From: Streptomyces ambofaciens ATCC 23877
GTDB lineage: Bacteria > Actinomycetota > Actinomycetes > Streptomycetales > Streptomycetaceae
DNA length: 64,000 bases
Direction: 5' to 3'
NCBI RefSeq assembly: GCF_001267885.1
Contig: NZ_CP012382.1
Coordinates: 62,001 to 126,000 of the forward strand
In this document: in pieces, positions 51,534 to 60,062 of the stretch
Numbering within the stretch: the first letter of the stretch is position 1
Layout: every line of letters starts with the position of its first letter
The notes under the pieces: model-generated
Seen by the model: the letters and a program-made list of their open reading frames with translations, nothing else
What the model was told of the DNA's origin: nothing
Databases searched by the model: none
Program-made: the position numbers and the translations under genes

Positions 51534-51908
51534 ATGCGACATCACAGCGGCAAGGGCGGCAGGCGTGCGCGAGTGACCCTGATATCGGCGTTCACGTTGG
51601 CCTCGGGGCTGGTGCTCGCCTCGGGCGGGACGGCGGCTGCGGCGGACGGTTACGGCCGCTGCCCCGACGGCCGGGCCTGCTACTTCGTCGACTCGAACGG
51701 CGACGGGGACTTCAACTACCCCACGTCCTGTGGGAACTTCCACCTCCGCGCGTACGCCGGGAAGATCTCCTCGGTCCGCACGCACGGGAATCCGGTCCAG
51801 CTGCGGGACGTGAACCAGAATCCGATCGGCTACGTGGGCCCCTGGACCGCGACCAACCTCTCGCTGAGCGAGAACGACAAGGCGCACTGGTTCGAGGTCA
51901 TCTGCTGA
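51534..51908 (+). CDS. Secreted peptidase inhibitor I36-like protein
   Basis: A 124-residue protein with a signal peptide (basic MRHHSGKGGRRARV, hydrophobic TLISAFTLASGLVLASG, cleavage near AAAAD). The mature part has RCPDGRACYFVDSNGDGDF, and Cys residues in TSCGNFHL and at the C-terminal end, which resembles beta/gamma-crystallin-like peptidase inhibitors of family I36 (SMPI type). ATG after GGGAGG. Followed by another secreted-protein gene on the same strand with a 61-bp gap, likely one transcript. Confidence 0.78.
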   Translation: MRHHSGKGGRRARVTLISAFTLASGLVLASGGTAAAADGYGRCPDGRACYFVDSNGDGDFNYPTSCGNFHLRAYAGKISSVRTHGNPVQLRDVNQNPIGYVGPWTATNLSLSENDKAHWFEVIC

Positions 51909-51969
51909 GCCGGCGAGCCACGATGCCGGGACGCACGTCCCGGCCGGGATCCCGAGAACGGAGAACACG

Positions 51970-52380
51970 GTGCACATCGCACGCACAGCACGGAAGGCTG
52001 CAACCGCCCTCGCTGCGGCGGGGGTCATCGCCGTCGTGGCGACGAGTCCCGCCGGCGCGGCAGCTGACGGGGCGCAGGACGAGACGCGCTGCGCCACCAT
52101 CGCCCAGGTGGACCGCAACCTGCGCATCTGCGTCAAGACGGGGCCGGGCATCCCCACCCACGTGTGGGTCGACAACAAGAGCGGCGTCACGTACTTCGGA
52201 GTCCAGTTACGGGTCGTCCAGCACAACGGTCCGATCGTGCGGGTCGGCAGCCCCTTCACGCTGCACGCGCACAGCATCGGGGGTATGGAGCAGCTCGGTC
52301 TGCCCAACGGCTGCTACTTCGGGCAGGTGACCCTGGGCGGCACACCCTGGTACGGCACTGCGGAACCTGCCTGCGTGTGA
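51970..52380 (+). CDS. Small secreted protein, 136 residues
   Basis: GTG start preceded by GGAG. Signal peptide with TALAAAGVIAVVATSPAGAAA and cleavage near AAADG. The mature part has Cys in TRCATIA, RICVKTG, NGCYFGQ and PACV, likely two disulfides, and beta-rich strands (HVWVDNKSGVTYFGV). Downstream partner of the I36-like gene. No family recognised. It may be a small extracellular binding or inhibitor protein. Confidence 0.72.
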   Translation: MHIARTARKAATALAAAGVIAVVATSPAGAAADGAQDETRCATIAQVDRNLRICVKTGPGIPTHVWVDNKSGVTYFGVQLRVVQHNGPIVRVGSPFTLHAHSIGGMEQLGLPNGCYFGQVTLGGTPWYGTAEPACV

Positions 52381-52779: not shown

Positions 52780-52806
52780 GGTCACATTTTCTGTTTTCGG
52801 GTCGTC
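52780..52806 (+). promoter_or_regulatory. ECF41-type promoter of the AhpD-like gene
   Basis: GGTCACA (52780-52786), a 16-bp spacer, and CGTC (52803-52806). This matches the bipartite promoter recalled for ECF41 sigma factors (TGTCACA...CGTC) in six of seven -35 bases, with the predicted start point about 55 nt before the ATG. The same sequence and spacing occur before the sigma gene itself at 57038-57064. Confidence 0.75.
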
Positions 52807-52867
52807 AGTGCAGTGAAGGCATCGCGGCCGTTCGCCACCGGCCGCTTATGGATTTGTGGAGGAACCC

Positions 52868-53332
52868 ATGACTGCTCGTATGCCCAACCCCGCGATCGTC
52901 GCCGGTCCCGAGGTCATCCCGGCGCTGCTGGGCGTGGCCGGTGCGGTGAAGAACACCGGTGTGCCGGAGGCCACGATCAACCTGATCTACCTGCGTGCCA
53001 GCCAGATCAACGGCTCCAGCTGGAACGTGCACAAGCACGCCGCCGACCTGAAGGCGGCCGGTGAGAGCGACGAGCGGATCAGCACCGTCGCGGCCTGGCG
53101 TGAGACGCCGTTCTTCACTCCCGAGGAGCGTGCCGCGCTGGCGCTGGCCGAGGCGGCGACGCGGCTGAGCGACCGTCAGGGGGACGCGGTGTCGGACGAG
53201 GTGTGGGCCGAGGCCGCCAAGTACTTCAGTGACCAGCAGCTCGCCGGGATCCTGCTGGCCACGGGTCTGAGCAACTTGTGGCACCGGCTGATCCCCACCA
53301 CCCGCCAGGCCGCGGGGCCGGTCGCCGGCTGA
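52868..53332 (+). CDS. AhpD-like carboxymuconolactone-decarboxylase-family protein without active-site Cys
   Basis: A 154-residue all-helical AhpD/CMD protein. The signature that normally reads NGC-xx-C-xxx-H is here NGSSWNVHKH: both Cys are replaced (Ser50 and Asn53), while the final His57 remains. The rest of the fold is intact (SDERISTVAAWRETPFF, LALAEAATRLSD). So the alkylhydroperoxidase reaction by the Cys pair is unlikely; another function or a partner role is inferred. ATG at 52868. An ECF41-type promoter precedes it. It is a paralogue of the protein at 59607, which retains the Cys pair. Confidence 0.88.
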   Translation: MTARMPNPAIVAGPEVIPALLGVAGAVKNTGVPEATINLIYLRASQINGSSWNVHKHAADLKAAGESDERISTVAAWRETPFFTPEERAALALAEAATRLSDRQGDAVSDEVWAEAAKYFSDQQLAGILLATGLSNLWHRLIPTTRQAAGPVAG

Positions 53333-53393
53333 CCACCGGCGCGGGTCGGGGCGGGGCGGACCGTGCCCCGCTGCTGTGTGCCCTCGCCCGTCC

Positions 53394-54812
53394 CTACGGT
53401 GCGGCGGGGCGGGCCAGGGAGCGGTCCACGAGGGCTGCGGCCGCTCCGGTGTAGGCGGCCGGGTCCAGCAGGCCGGCCAGTTCCGCGGGGGTGAGGACGC
53501 CTTCGAGCGCGGGGTGTCCGGCCAGGACGTCGGCCAGCGGGCGGGAGGTCTCGGCCGCCTGGTGGGAGGCGTGGGTGAGGAGTTGCTTCGCCTCGGCCGT
53601 GCCGAGGCGGGGGGCGAGGACGGCGCTGAGGCGTTCGGAGACGATCTGCCCGCCGGTCGCCTCGAGGTTGGCGCGCATCCGGTCGGGGTGGACGGTCAGT
53701 CCCCGGGCCAGTTCGGCGGCGGTGGCGGCGGCGCCGCCGGTCAGGCGCAGTGCCTCGCGCAGGGGCTGCCACTCGGCGTGCCACAGGCCGGCGGAGCGTT
53801 CGTCCTCGGCGGGCATGCAGTGGGCCAGGACGGAGGCGAGGGCGGGGACCTGGAGGGCGGCCGAGCGGATGAGGGTGGCCAGGACGGGGTTGCGTTTGTG
53901 GGGCATCGCCGAGGAGGCGCCGCGGCCGGCCGCGGCGGGCTCGGTGACCTCGCCGATCTCGGTGCGGGTCAGTACCTGCACGTCGGCGGCGATCTTGCCG
54001 AGGGCGCCGGCGGTGTGGGCGAGGGCGGCGCCCAGGTCGGTGACGGGGGTGCGCAGCGCGTGCCAGGGCAGGGCGGGTGCGCTCAGGCCGGTCTCCTCGG
54101 CGTAGGCGGCGGTCAGGTCCTCGATCAGGGCTCGGGGGGTGGCGGCGGGGCCTGCGTGCTGGAGGTAGCCGGCGAGGGTGCCGGCCGCGCCGCCGAGGGA
54201 GACGGGCAGGCCGTGGGCGGTGATGCGGGACAGGCGTTCGGCGGCGTCCAGGACGAGTTCGCGCCAGCCGGCCGCCTTCAGGCCGAAGGTGGTGGGTACG
54301 GCGTGCAGGGTCAGGGTGCGGCCCGCCATGACGGTGTCTCGGTGCCGGGCGGCGAGGCCGGCCAGGGCGGCGGCGGTCTCGTGCAGGTCGGCGGTGATCA
54401 GGTCCAGGGCGCGGGCCGCGACGAGCATGGCGGCGGTGTCGAAGACGTCCTGGCTCGTGGAGCCGCGGTGGACGTATTCGGCGGCCTCGGGTGAGTGTGC
54501 CGCGACCTGCGCGGTGAGGGCTTGGACCAGGGCGACGACGGGGTTGGCGGTCTCGCGGGCGGCGAGGGCCACCTGGCGCACGTCGAGGTGGCCGGCCCGG
54601 GCGCAGGCGGTGATGGTGCGGGCCGCCGCAGAGGGGACCGTGCCGCACCGGGCCTGGGCGCGGGCCAGGGCGGCCTCGGCGTCGAGCATCGCCTGCAGCC
54701 AGGCGGTGTCGCTGACGGCCGCCTCGACGCGGGTGCCGGCCCGCACCGGGGAGAGCAGGCCGGTGTCCGGTGGGCAGGCGGGGCCGGCGGGGGCGGGCTG
54801 GTCGCGGCTCAT
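53394..54812 (-). CDS. PcaB/CreD-type lyase (aspartase/fumarase superfamily)
   Basis: A 472-residue lyase. Superfamily features: VHRGSTSQDVFDTA (His and Ser region), and the signature loop GASSAMPHKRNP near residue 300. Closest by pattern to 3-carboxy-cis,cis-muconate cycloisomerase (PcaB), the group that also contains the nitrosuccinate lyase CreD. Its ATG overlaps the stop of the upstream FAD/NAD(P)-binding gene (54809-54812), so the two are coupled. No protocatechuate dioxygenase genes are present, which speaks against a complete beta-ketoadipate pathway. Convergent with the AhpD-like gene. The nitrosuccinate role is inferred from the pairing, not shown. Confidence 0.85.
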   Translation of the reverse strand: MSRDQPAPAGPACPPDTGLLSPVRAGTRVEAAVSDTAWLQAMLDAEAALARAQARCGTVPSAAARTITACARAGHLDVRQVALAARETANPVVALVQALTAQVAAHSPEAAEYVHRGSTSQDVFDTAAMLVAARALDLITADLHETAAALAGLAARHRDTVMAGRTLTLHAVPTTFGLKAAGWRELVLDAAERLSRITAHGLPVSLGGAAGTLAGYLQHAGPAATPRALIEDLTAAYAEETGLSAPALPWHALRTPVTDLGAALAHTAGALGKIAADVQVLTRTEIGEVTEPAAAGRGASSAMPHKRNPVLATLIRSAALQVPALASVLAHCMPAEDERSAGLWHAEWQPLREALRLTGGAAATAAELARGLTVHPDRMRANLEATGGQIVSERLSAVLAPRLGTAEAKQLLTHASHQAAETSRPLADVLAGHPALEGVLTPAELAGLLDPAAYTGAAAALVDRSLARPAAP

Positions 54813-56836
54813 GAGGCCTTCCTGGCCGGTGCGGGGCCGGTGGCGGTGTCGGGGGCCGCGAGTGTCGTCGTGGCGGGCGGTGCGGCGGCTCGGGCCGGTT
54901 CGGGCAGGGCGAGGGCGGCTGCCGCGATGGCGTCGGAGTCCTCCAGGGTCACCGAGCCGACTCCGGGCCGGATGCCGGCCGCGGTCACCCAGTGGACGGA
55001 CTCGGTGGGCACCCCGTAGGCGAAGCGCCTGGGGTGGGCGGTGCCGGCGGCGTCCACCAGGTGGTAGGGGCGGGCGGAGACGGCGAGGCCGCCGGTCTCG
55101 TAGTCCTGGCCGTCCGCGCCGGGGACGCGGTGGGGGCGGCACTGGCCGGTGTGCAGCAGCTGGTTCATCAGCGGGTCGGCGGTGCGGCGCAGGTCGATCT
55201 CCGGCAGCCGGGACTCGATGAGCGTGGTGGCGTGGACGTGCACGCCGGGGATGTCGCTGGTGTGCGTGAAGCGGGGGCCGTCCGGGGCGTGGGGGTCGGC
55301 CTCGACGCGCATGCCGGGGCCGGTGACCTCCAGGACGCCCGCGTCGATGAGGGCGGCCATCTCCTCGATGCGGGAGGCGGGCGGGCCGATGGACAGGTAG
55401 GCGTTGAGCGGGGTGTACCAGCCGTCGAGTTCGTCGCGGTGGGAGGCCGCGTCGAGGCCGGCGTGGTCGACGGCGAGCCGGATCTCGTTGCGCAGGTCGC
55501 GCAGGATGTCCAGGGCCGCCTTGCGGGGTCCGCTGACGTTGCCGAGGCGGGCCTGGCGGACGTCGTCGTCGAGGTGGGCGCGCAGCCAGGTGCGGAAGGC
55601 GTCCAGGTCGCCGAAGGTGCGCTCGCCGTAGGGGCGGGAGACCAGGGACCAGTCCCAGCGCTCGGCGACGGGGACGGCGAAGACGTCCAGGAGGTGTTCC
55701 TGCGGGGGGCCGGGCGGGGTGTGCAGGTACTGTCCGGCGAACTCGGCGACCTGGTCCGGGGTGTGGCCGCGGGCGGTCAGGAGGGTCTCGTAGTAGACGC
55801 TCTCGACCTCCCTGGCGATCAGCGGCCACAGGTCGGCGGTGAAGCGGACCGGGCGGGGCCGGCCGCCGGGGGCGCGCAGGGCCTGGGCGTGGCGGGCGGT
55901 GAGCAGCCGGGGGAAGTAGCGGCCGTGGGCGCCCTTCTCGTTCTCGCCGCGTGCCTGGTAGGGCACGCCGCGCCGCGAACCGGCGTACAGGCGCGGTTCG
56001 CGGCCCGAGGGGTGGTAGACGAGCCGGCCGCCGGTGCGGGTGAAGGTGCCGCCCCGGCCCTGGGTGAACAGGGCCGTGTAGTCGAAGAAGTTCAGGCCCA
56101 GTCCGCGCAGCAGGACCTTCTCGCCGGGGGCGACGCAGGTCAGGTCGGTGTCGGCGGGGTTGGCGGGGGCGAGGTAGGTCAGGCCGTGGCGGGCGGCGAA
56201 GGCGGCGAGCCGCTGTTCGGTGCCGGTGGGCCTGGCCGGTACGTGGCCCTGGGCCAGGACGACCGCGGACAGGCCGGTCAGGCGGGTGCCGTCCTCCAGG
56301 AGCACGCTCTGGGCGGGGTGGGGCCCGGCGGCCGTCTCCTCGCTCAGGGCGACGGCCCGCGCGGGGTGCACGCGGACGGTGACGTGGGCCGGGGCTTCGG
56401 CGATGACCTGCCGGAACACCCACATCAGGTAGTGCCCGTACAGGGCGCGGGTGGGATAGGTGTCCGGTCCCAGGGCGCGTGCCTCGGCGAGGGTCTCCTC
56501 GTCGTGGGCGAGGTGGGGGCCGGTGTTCAGGGCGCCGGCGCCCAGTGCTCGGGCCCACTGGTGGAGGCTGGGGCCTTCCTCCAGGGGGCCTTCGGTCTGG
56601 ACGCTGGCGTCGGTGAACACCGTGACCTGGGAGGCGACGGTGTTCATCAGCAGGTGCCGGGACTGGGTGGGCCGCCAGACCCGGCCGGAGCCGGGGGGCG
56701 AGGGGTCGGCCACGTGCACGGTGACGCGGTCCCAGCGCGGGTTCTTGCGTTCGTGGGCGCACAGCCGTTCCAGTACGGACAGTCCGCGCGGTCCGGCGCC
56801 CACGATGCACAGGTCCATGTGCCCGGTGCCCGCCAT
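54809..56836 (-). CDS. FAD/NAD(P)-binding monooxygenase-like protein (CreE-type)
   Basis: A 675-residue flavoprotein. Dinucleotide motif LCIVGAGPRGLSVLER with GAGPRG at residues 13-18, HLLMNTVASQVTVFTD, the HLAHDEETLAEARALGP and YPTRALYGHYLMW segments, and a second site near VVLAQGHVP. The architecture is that of the large FAD/NAD(P)-binding (NAD_binding_9) proteins that include CreE, the monooxygenase oxidising aspartate to nitrosuccinate. ATG at 56836 (MAGTGHMDL); an ATG six codons later is an alternative. Coupled to the lyase downstream. Flavin chemistry is clear; the substrate is an inference. Family members without a lyase partner are common, so the pairing is what matters. Confidence 0.82.
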   Translation of the reverse strand: MAGTGHMDLCIVGAGPRGLSVLERLCAHERKNPRWDRVTVHVADPSPPGSGRVWRPTQSRHLLMNTVASQVTVFTDASVQTEGPLEEGPSLHQWARALGAGALNTGPHLAHDEETLAEARALGPDTYPTRALYGHYLMWVFRQVIAEAPAHVTVRVHPARAVALSEETAAGPHPAQSVLLEDGTRLTGLSAVVLAQGHVPARPTGTEQRLAAFAARHGLTYLAPANPADTDLTCVAPGEKVLLRGLGLNFFDYTALFTQGRGGTFTRTGGRLVYHPSGREPRLYAGSRRGVPYQARGENEKGAHGRYFPRLLTARHAQALRAPGGRPRPVRFTADLWPLIAREVESVYYETLLTARGHTPDQVAEFAGQYLHTPPGPPQEHLLDVFAVPVAERWDWSLVSRPYGERTFGDLDAFRTWLRAHLDDDVRQARLGNVSGPRKAALDILRDLRNEIRLAVDHAGLDAASHRDELDGWYTPLNAYLSIGPPASRIEEMAALIDAGVLEVTGPGMRVEADPHAPDGPRFTHTSDIPGVHVHATTLIESRLPEIDLRRTADPLMNQLLHTGQCRPHRVPGADGQDYETGGLAVSARPYHLVDAAGTAHPRRFAYGVPTESVHWVTAAGIRPGVGSVTLEDSDAIAAAALALPEPARAAAPPATTTLAAPDTATGPAPARKAS

Positions 56837-57037
56837 GTTCCTGTGCTCGGCGGCCGGTGTCCTCCGGCCGGTGACGTCGGGGTGATGGAGCGGGAATCCG
56901 GCGAGCCGGCCCGGGCCATCGTCAGGTGAACGGTCCACAGCGCCTCCTTGTGCGCGCCACCGTCGGCCGCCTCGCTCAATCAGCGCTCGGTCCCCGCTGG
57001 AGGACGAGGTCGCCGCGCACGCGCCGAGCGGGTGCGC

Positions 57038-57064
57038 GGTCACATCGGGGTGCTCTCGTGCGTC
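57038..57064 (+). promoter_or_regulatory. ECF41-type promoter of the sigma gene
   Basis: GGTCACA (57038-57044), 16-bp spacer, CGTC (57061-57064), identical in both boxes and spacing to the site at 52780-52806. The sigma-gene ATG is 35 bp after the -10 box. Autoregulation by the sigma factor is inferred. Confidence 0.75.
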
Positions 57065-57098: not shown

Positions 57099-57962
57099 AT
57101 GGACGAGCAGGAATGGCTGGCCGAGCAGTTCGAGGGCGCCCGTGGGCATCTGCGGGCGGTCGCGTACCGCATGCTGGGCTCCCTCACCGAGGCGGACGAC
57201 GCGGTGCAGGAGGCGTGGCTGCGGCTGAACCGGGCCTACGACAGTGACATCGAGAACCTGCGCGGGTGGCTGACCACGGTGGTGGGCCGGGTGTGCCTGG
57301 ACATGCTGAAGTCGCGCCGGATCCGCCGGGAGGACCCGTTCGAGTCGGTGGTCCACGTGCCGGACTACGTCCAGGAGGAGGAGGGGGATCCGGAGCAGCG
57401 CGCGCTGCTGGCGGACTCGGTGGGGCTGGCGCTGCTGGTGGTGCTGGAGGCGCTGGACCCGGCGGAGCGGCTGGCGTTCGTGCTGCACGACATGTTCGGT
57501 GTGCCGTTCGACGAGATCGCGCCGATCGTCGAGCGGACCCCGGCGGCGGCCCGGCAGCTGGCCAGCCGCGCGCGGCGCCGGGTGCGGGGCGGGTCCGCGG
57601 TGCCGGACCCGGACCTGGCCAAGCGGCGTGAGGTGGTCGAGGCGTTCTTGTCCGCTGCGCGCGGCGGGGACTTCGAGGCGCTGCTGAACGTGCTGGATCC
57701 CGGTGTGGTGGCCCGCTCGGACGGCCGGCTGGGGGCGCGGGGCGCGCCGGCGGTGGCGTCGACGGCGGCGGCGTTCGCGCGGATCGCGGAGGTGGCGCAG
57801 CTGGCGCTGATCAACGGTTCGCCCGGTGTGATCGCCGCGCACGCCGGGGAGGGTTTCCGGGCGATGACGTTCGACGTCGCGGGCGGCTGCATCACCGAGA
57901 TCGACGTCATCACCGATCCGGAGCGGCTGCTGACCCTGGACCTGGCGCTGCTGGAGGGCTGA
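57099..57962 (+). CDS. ECF sigma factor with SnoaL-like domain (SigJ/ECF41 type)
   Basis: A 287-residue sigma factor. Region 2 (about 10-75: LRAVAYRMLGSLTEADDAVQ and AWLRLNRAY), region 4 (about 110-165: ALDPAERLAFVLHDMFGVPF and PAAARQLASRARRR), then a C-terminal SnoaL-like domain (about 175-285) which in ECF41 proteins modulates activity in place of an anti-sigma factor. The usual ECF41 motif DGGGK appears here as DGRLGAR, and NPDKL as DPERLL, so it is a divergent member. ATG after GGAGGAG. ECF41 genes are typically linked to carboxymuconolactone decarboxylase, oxidoreductase or epimerase genes, as here. Confidence 0.9.
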   Translation: MDEQEWLAEQFEGARGHLRAVAYRMLGSLTEADDAVQEAWLRLNRAYDSDIENLRGWLTTVVGRVCLDMLKSRRIRREDPFESVVHVPDYVQEEEGDPEQRALLADSVGLALLVVLEALDPAERLAFVLHDMFGVPFDEIAPIVERTPAAARQLASRARRRVRGGSAVPDPDLAKRREVVEAFLSAARGGDFEALLNVLDPGVVARSDGRLGARGAPAVASTAAAFARIAEVAQLALINGSPGVIAAHAGEGFRAMTFDVAGGCITEIDVITDPERLLTLDLALLEG

Positions 57963-59606: not shown

Positions 59607-60062
59607 TCACCAGGCCTGGCCGGCCACTTGACGGGTGGTGGCGTTGAGGCGGTTGAAGAAGTTGGCCACCGCGCACATCATCACGATCGCGGCCAGGCCC
59701 TTCTCGTCGTAGTGGCGGGCGGCCTCCTGCCAGACGGCGTCCGGGACGGCGTCCTCGCGGTCGGCGAGGCGGGTGGAGTGCTCGGCGAGCGCCAGGGCGG
59801 CGCGTTCGGCGTCGGTGAAGAAGGGCGCGTCGCGCCAGGCCGCCACGGTGGCCAGGCGTTCGTCGCTCTCGCCGGCCTTGCGGGCGCTGCGGGAGGAGGC
59901 GTCGACGCAGGCGCTGCAGCCGTTGATCTGGCTGACGCGCAGGTGGACGAGTTCCAGTGTGGGCTGCGGGACGCCGCCCTGCCGGGTCGCCTTCATCAGG
60001 GCGCCGATGGCCTGCGTGGCGCCGGGCAGGACACCGGCCGGGTTGGTCATCCGTGCTTCCAT
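59607..60062 (-). CDS. AhpD-like carboxymuconolactone-decarboxylase-family protein with CxxC
   Basis: A 151-residue AhpD/CMD protein, paralogue of the one at 52868. It has NGCSACVDASS: Cys49 and Cys52 form the redox CxxC, but the His that should follow four residues after the second Cys is Ser56. So a complete AhpD charge relay is not present. ATG at 60062 with an alternative four codons later. Third of three AhpD-like genes in this locus, separated by 69 bp from the next one upstream. Possible peroxide or thiol-disulfide role; unproven. Confidence 0.9.
   Translation of the reverse strand: MEARMTNPAGVLPGATQAIGALMKATRQGGVPQPTLELVHLRVSQINGCSACVDASSRSARKAGESDERLATVAAWRDAPFFTDAERAALALAEHSTRLADREDAVPDAVWQEAARHYDEKGLAAIVMMCAVANFFNRLNATTRQVAGQAW

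Follow-up and report, generated by a model that had tools for sequence, protein, structure and literature searches.

Why does one bipartite sequence, GGTCACA followed after exactly 16 bases by CGTC, stand both before a sigma factor gene and before a distant gene of the carboxymuconolactone decarboxylase (CMD)/AhpD fold in Streptomyces ambofaciens ATCC 23877? Both sites lie in the window analysed here, a stretch of 64,000 nucleotides (C1:62001-126000) of a genome of 8.39 Mb in two contigs. An original prediction had read them as promoters of an ECF41-type sigma factor that controls its own gene and the CMD gene, here called CMDa. Judged by sequence, it is quite likely that they are promoters used by an ECF41-type sigma factor of the kinamycin (alp) cluster, and that a single regulon comprises CMDa, the sigma gene and, outside the window, an exporter gene and a hairpin element (coordinates in Table 1). 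The finding is real, and there is good support for an ECF41-type reading of it once a lyase/flavoprotein pair (creD/creE) that lies between the two genes is left out of it.

Both sites are indeed where they had been placed, and they are the sole exact matches to KGTCACA-N16-CGTC in the window, versus 0.13 expected under a first-order Markov model for both strands of the 64 kb. The gap from site to ATG is 61 bases for CMDa and 34 bases for the sigma gene. With up to one mismatch the window holds five matches (three of them with one mismatch), which is at chance level (mean 3.99). A genome-wide scan, of the kind that the original prediction had proposed as a check, returned 43 matches to GTCACA-N16-SGTC, or 39 when four that are repeated in the second terminal repeat are counted once, versus 7 for the reversed pattern; GTCACA-N13..19-CGTC has 113 matches versus 49. 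Of the 43 N16 places, the first 30 were placed in their gene context, with gene starts called by our own script: 8 are no more than 300 bp upstream of a called start, 13 fall inside called genes and 9 are in intergenic DNA without a start, the exporter site being counted among the last because the short locus cuts the exporter gene. Another 23 places with other spacers divide into 3, 11 and 9, respectively. The motif alone thus does not justify calling the two matches free of chance. It had been stated that numerous hits across the genome outside gene contexts would speak against the idea, and the bare pattern goes part of the way there, so the case rests on conservation. The motif on its own is weak evidence; conservation is strong evidence.

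We compared 80 relatives of the sigma gene that had enough upstream DNA, scoring for each the best match over 11 positions within 250 bp upstream. A match of at least 10/11 with the 16-base spacer is present in 58 of the 80 relatives (at least 9/11 in 68), the other spacers from 12 to 20 reach this score in 0 to 12 of them, and no relative has such a spacer-16 match in 250 bp inside the gene. Most of these sites (51 of 58) fall between -78 and -52. Their first base is T in 32, G in 23 and C in 13 of the 68 sites, and several relatives (e.g., L042, L048, L061, and L068 in our numbering of loci) carry a second site, on the other strand, before a divergent CMD gene. This conservation argues for the predicted autoregulation, in which the sigma factor would transcribe its own gene. 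The sigma gene has a site of its own (10/11 or 11/11) in S. ambofaciens, genome G289, S. rochei (L039) and S. gossypii (L040), where CMDa is not directly upstream, and it is without a good one (best 9/11, spacer 17) in G184, where it directly follows CMDa. ECF41 factors are described as using the promoter TGTCACA-n16-CGTC, with operons of a carboxymuconolactone decarboxylase, oxidoreductase or epimerase (COE) gene and the sigma gene transcribed from a promoter before the COE gene (Wecke 2012, PMC3426412). The arrangement in G184 matches this rule of a promoter before the COE gene only; those in G236 and G248 do not fit it.

The sigma factor itself is of the predicted SnoaL-fused kind. Pfam Sigma70_r2 and Sigma70_r4_2 score above cut-off, SigJ of Mycobacterium tuberculosis (PDB: 5xe7) matches with an E value of 7.8e-39, and the predicted structure (mean predicted local distance difference test 80.6) has fold matches to SigG1, SigJ, and NTF2-like proteins, consistent with a sigma2/sigma4 core and a SnoaL/NTF2-like C-terminal domain. 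The root mean square deviation between this model and 5xe7 is large, so model and crystal differ in how their domains are arranged. The linker HVPDYVQEE and the segment DPERL near the C-terminus are similar in place, not in letters, to the ECF41 motifs YVGPWLPEP (linker) and NPDKL (C-terminal) as quoted in PMC7730460. The NCBIfam model for SigJ (NF007214) scores 246.2 bits, below its cut-off of 271, and we keep the group designation at ECF41-like; the newer classification has ECF41, ECF56, ECF205, ECF294, and ECF295. As in ECF41, no anti-sigma factor is found among the annotated neighbours in the window. A second, identical copy of the gene is present, which places it in the terminal inverted repeat (TIR). 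In a tree whose bootstrap is not yet settled, one clade (100/99) unites the sigma factors of S. ambofaciens, S. rochei, S. gossypii, G184, G236, and Streptomyces sp. B-S-A12 (L041, which seems to be the G289 record).

This sigma factor probably has CMDa as its partner, in agreement with the original proposal of a CMD/AhpD-like target. Orthologues with 72% or more identity occur in five of 372 Streptomyces genomes (S. ambofaciens, G184, G236, G248, and G289) and relatives at E 1e-40 in 59 of the 372; when 297 genomes drawn from across the family were searched at E 1e-55, CMDa turned up in S. ambofaciens only. On the same strand, CMDa immediately precedes the sigma gene in G184 and G236 and immediately follows it in G248. 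An 11/11 site precedes CMDa in three of the five clusters (S. ambofaciens, G184, and G289) and is absent from this position in G236 and G248. Among 30 Streptomyces loci with CMDa relatives, S. ambofaciens included, 14 have an 11/11 site in the upstream 300 bp, 11 with a spacer of 16 and 3 with a spacer of 17. All five cluster orthologues have SSWN in place of CxxC, which makes a thiol peroxidase function of CMDa improbable; the protein may instead serve in binding or in another kind of catalysis. This differs from the ECF41-linked CMDs, all of which are stated to have CxxC (Wecke 2012, PMC3426412). Database homologues of CMDa number 2,072; the 120 of them that were listed comprise 96 with CxxC, 18 with SxxN, 1 with SxxS, and 5 that the search expression did not catch, four of which read S/A-x-W-N by eye. 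A CxxC-less CMD/AhpD-fold group thus accounts for 23 of the 120 listed homologues, is mostly S/A-x-W-N, and includes an Actinomadura member.

CMDa, CMDb, and a short-chain dehydrogenase/reductase (SDR) gene all lie within 5 kb of the sigma gene, and the CMDb homologue is preceded by an ECF41-type site (10/11 or 11/11) in G184, G236, and G248. As targets in S. ambofaciens, the SDR-CMDc-CMDb operon and an acyltransferase are unconvincing (best matches 9/11 and 8/11). Two genes to the left of CMDa encode small proteins of 124 and 136 aa whose starts look by eye like signal peptides, and neither Pfam nor NCBIfam gives a match for the second.

The regulon probably extends to an exporter gene outside the window, which encodes a major facilitator superfamily (MFS) protein of the DHA2 family and is preceded by GGTCACA-N16-CGTC, 134 bases from its start. 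The exporter orthologues of six loci are 77-85% identical to one another, and an 11/11 site stands before the gene in four of the six (S. ambofaciens, G289, G184, and S. gossypii). There is no site before it in G248, and in G236 (L224:14037-16690) a 10/11 site stands before CMDb with the exporter gene next on the same strand, so that site placement moves between regulon members. The 20.9-kb S. gossypii locus, whose cluster type is unverified, contains the exporter and CMD genes along with the sigma gene, and creDE is absent.

A fourth exact site, in a gap between convergent genes, is directly followed by an element of about 90 nt, a candidate small RNA to which the regulon probably also extends. 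The element is predicted to form one long stem-loop with a conserved C-rich loop (UCCCCC) and is kept in G289 (75%) and G236 (73%), each time directly 3' of an exact site; the three sequences have z scores of -5.6, -3.2, and -3.9. In the alignment 93.3% of cells pair, versus 29-63% when slid, and covariation is not significant (three sequences, one pair changed on both sides, 166 of 500 shuffles as good). No Rfam family matches at E 1. Out of 392 Streptomyces genomes, a covariance model has strong matches in 3, each of which is also one of the five CMDa genomes; G355 matches only weakly (E 0.004) and was treated as chance, as were short matches at E 8e-5 to 9e-4. The hairpin was not found in G184 or G248, and a search of 140 relatives of G236 returned G236 itself only. 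A small protein encoded by the hairpin was rejected, no open reading frame of at least 15 aa closing within about 300 nt of the site in S. ambofaciens or G289; an open ATG frame in the S. ambofaciens element is by eye not common to G289 or G236. The loop pairs best, out of 62 genes, with the start of a Streptomyces antibiotic regulatory protein (SARP) gene that appears to be AlpV-like, at -18.1; shuffled loops average -17.8, and the pairing is not significant. The G289 SARP pairs with its own loop at -20.2, within the range of shuffled controls, and the G236 stretches examined yielded no relative of AlpV. A published list of S. ambofaciens small RNAs has 45 entries.

Because it directly follows a hydroxylase gene in S. 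ambofaciens and G289, and is strong and GC-rich, the hairpin could instead be a mere transcription terminator of the FAD hydroxylase operon, with the adjacent site incidental. We consider this unlikely. In G236 the site and hairpin are found elsewhere, the preceding called gene is divergent, and the nearest upstream gene on the same strand ends about 1.1 kb off; with neighbours that differ, the two behave as a unit. Moreover, it is the promoter site, rather than the stop codon, that marks the start of the conserved sequence.

The single-regulon reading also has to be set against other sigma factors of the same type. About a dozen ECF41-like paralogues are present in the S. ambofaciens genome, 12 of which were examined for sites. 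One of them (C1:2920318) adjoins a CMD gene with CxxC and has an exact TGTCACA-N16-CGTC upstream, and three at 442-465 kb are surrounded by exact TGTCACA..GGTC sites. The alp-cluster sites could thus be real while some other ECF41-like sigma factor of the genome chiefly drives CMDa and perhaps the exporter, in which case CMDa and the sigma gene would not form one regulon. However, G184 and G236 show CMDa physically linked to the alp sigma clade, and GGTCACA begins three of the four alp-cluster sites, whereas the paralogue sites listed begin with TGTCACA, a difference that may insulate the former from the paralogues; we find this alternative improbable. Very improbable is that only the sigma-gene site is real, as an autoregulatory promoter, and that the matches before CMDa, the exporter, and the hairpin arose by chance or are what is left of decayed sites: this would suit the matches inside called genes and the missing CMDa site in G236 and G248, but in several genomes an 11/11 site stands before these same targets, and the hairpin site is kept while the sequence before it has diverged.

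As an observation in its own right, the region C1:442026-464486 (L123, L124, L164-L171) has eight GTCACA-N16-GGTC sites around the three ECF41-like sigma genes, four of them inside script-called genes. It has the appearance of another local regulon, one in which the -10 element is the variant GGTC.

The reading as one ECF41-type regulon does not include the genes that separate CMDa from the sigma gene. A small regulon over 52.8-57.1 kb had been predicted, with the lyase/flavoprotein pair in between; CMDa and the sigma gene keep their place in it and it reaches beyond the window, but the pair is on the opposite strand and has no ECF41 site before it (best 8/11, upstream of creE), and we rejected it as a member. 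A nitrosuccinate lyase above its cut-off adjoins a CreE-type flavoprotein here, as expected of a nitrous-acid pair. The same locus has been described as the kinamycin (alp) cluster, which S. ambofaciens carries in duplicate in its TIRs (PMC12181624, PMC4506494, PMC7343708), and beside which the creE-like gene upstream of the creD-like gene in ATCC 23877 has been named alp2F and alp2G, respectively; deletion of alp2F abolishes kinamycin, and the cluster edge is proposed at alp2G (PMC12181624). CMDa thus lies just outside the proposed cluster, and the "five genes between alp2F and alp1X" of that paper would, by gene count, include the sigma gene.

Minimal type II polyketide synthase (PKS)-like genes, recognized by eye, are located about 43 kb to the right of the sigma gene (C1:162168-164985). 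All five CMDa genomes carry kinamycin-type genes, i.e., relatives of the S. ambofaciens hydroxylases and exporter, together with further shared genes that we take to be the hydrazine set. Minimal-PKS relatives with 65-94% identity are present in all of them except G289, which has a 37% relative only in the stretches examined. The creDE genes are on the same stretch as CMDa in S. ambofaciens, G236, G248, and G289; in G184 they are not in the cluster stretches, and relatives are found elsewhere in the genome. The arrangement suggests that CMDa and the sigma gene were once neighbours and have since been split by creDE, which may have entered between them in the S. ambofaciens lineage. Also by the kinamycin genes, C1:149150-153570 (L229:7150-11570) has the starts, by eye, of genes resembling a TatD hydrolase, a sugar-phosphate isomerase, UbiA, and an inositol-phosphate synthase, a run presumably akin to ebo operons.

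Table 1. Positions of the promoter sites, the proposed regulon members, and neighbouring features. Plain positions refer to the window; C1 is the contig containing it.
Feature	Position	Strand	Basis or remark
ECF41-type promoter site GGTCACA-N16-CGTC	52780..52806	+	upstream of CMDa; exact match
ECF41-type promoter site GGTCACA-N16-CGTC	57038..57064	+	upstream of sigma gene; exact match
ECF41-like sigma factor, sigma2 + sigma4 + SnoaL/NTF2-like C-terminal domain (residues ~171-276)	57099..57962	+	Pfam, structure matches
Second copy of sigma gene	C1:8183982-8184842		identical
CMDa, CMD/AhpD-fold, SSWN for CxxC; proposed target	52868..53332	+	Pfam CMD 58.5 bits
DHA2-family MFS exporter	C1:134302-135810	-	EmrB model 232.1 bits, cut-off 230.2
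Hairpin promoter site	C1:127695-127721	-	exact match
~90-nt hairpin element, candidate small RNA	C1:127604-127694 (L131:1604-1694)	-	directly after exact ECF41-type site
Hairpin copies	G289:C47:19300-19386; G236:C1:217669-217750		after exact site
creD-like nitrosuccinate lyase (alp2G); not in regulon	53394..54812	-	NCBIfam NF052556 785.5 bits, cut-off 650
creE-like FAD monooxygenase (alp2F); not in regulon	54809..56836	-	Pfam NAD_binding_9
CMDb, second CMD gene, CxxC (CSAC)	59607..60062	-	best upstream match 8/11
Two small proteins left of CMDa	51534-52380		124 and 136 aa

Compared with known systems, the locus resembles ECF41 as described in PMC3426412 in its sigma2/sigma4 core with a SnoaL-like extension, its promoter of the TGTCACA-n16-CGTC type, and its linked CMD gene. 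It differs in the first base of the site (G for T), in a CMDa without CxxC, in the further candidate targets (exporter and hairpin), in its antibiotic-cluster setting, and in the separation of the sigma gene from CMDa by creDE. The antibiotic-cluster context also sets it apart from SigJ, an ECF41 member. SigG1 of Streptomyces tsukubaensis (ECF56; PDB: 7qh5) is reported to have no clear autoregulation peak and to have the partner RsfG (PMC7730460), unlike the sigma gene here with its own promoter site. For the signal of ECF41 factors, a review says "likely small molecules" only (PMC8999054). The terms sigma, ECF, and AhpD are absent from the main text of PMC12181624, the term sigma is absent from the text of PMC4506494 drawn on here, and the titles and abstracts listed in searches of the open-licence PMC literature, supplements aside, included no paper on this regulon.

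Several observations weigh against a single regulon. Besides the frequency of bare motif matches across the genome, many of them within called genes, the preference for a 16-base spacer is less sharp at 9/11, where other spacers score 5-35 of the 80 relatives (35 for spacer 19, 33 for spacer 12) versus 68 at 16. G236 is without a site before CMDa or the sigma gene; G248 is without one before CMDa, the sigma gene, or the exporter, has a site only before CMDb, and its sigma factor falls outside the clade of the others. The paralogue at C1:2920318, given the exact site upstream of it, could recognize the alp-cluster promoters. Finally, the targets given in Wecke 2012 (PMC3426412) are COE and sigma genes only, so that the exporter and the RNA go beyond precedent.

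From the sites, their conservation, the gene order, and the predicted domain structure, we infer how transcription, ligand, locus history, and physiological role would fit together. The sigma factor would transcribe its own gene and CMDa. In the ancestral state the two would have been neighbours in the same direction with a single promoter upstream of CMDa; in the present state creD and creE are between them on the opposite strand, and the sigma gene would be read from a separate promoter copy. Very probably, the DHA2-family exporter and the candidate hairpin RNA of the same cluster are likewise driven by this sigma factor. The fused SnoaL/NTF2-like domain may keep the sigma factor inactive until a cluster-derived aromatic molecule is bound, upon which exporter, CMDa, and RNA would rise together in a self-protection or feedback response. 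A tentative extension, which we hold to be rather doubtful as a whole, is that an ECF41-type one-component sigma factor serves diazofluorene (kinamycin-type) clusters as a sensor of product or intermediate: its pocket would bind the cluster's own aromatic polyketide and switch on the exporter, the thiol-less CMD, and the RNA, whose UCCCCC loop could pair with ribosome-binding sites, possibly those of the SARP genes of the cluster, as negative feedback.

The combination of a sensor fold of the polyketide-cyclase type in aromatic polyketide clusters with a promoter before an exporter makes the question of the ligand testable, with few candidate molecules. If the reading is true, CMDa, the sigma factor, and an arm for export, perhaps with a regulatory RNA as well, would be added to the kinamycin system, for which the boundary proposed so far stops at alp2G.

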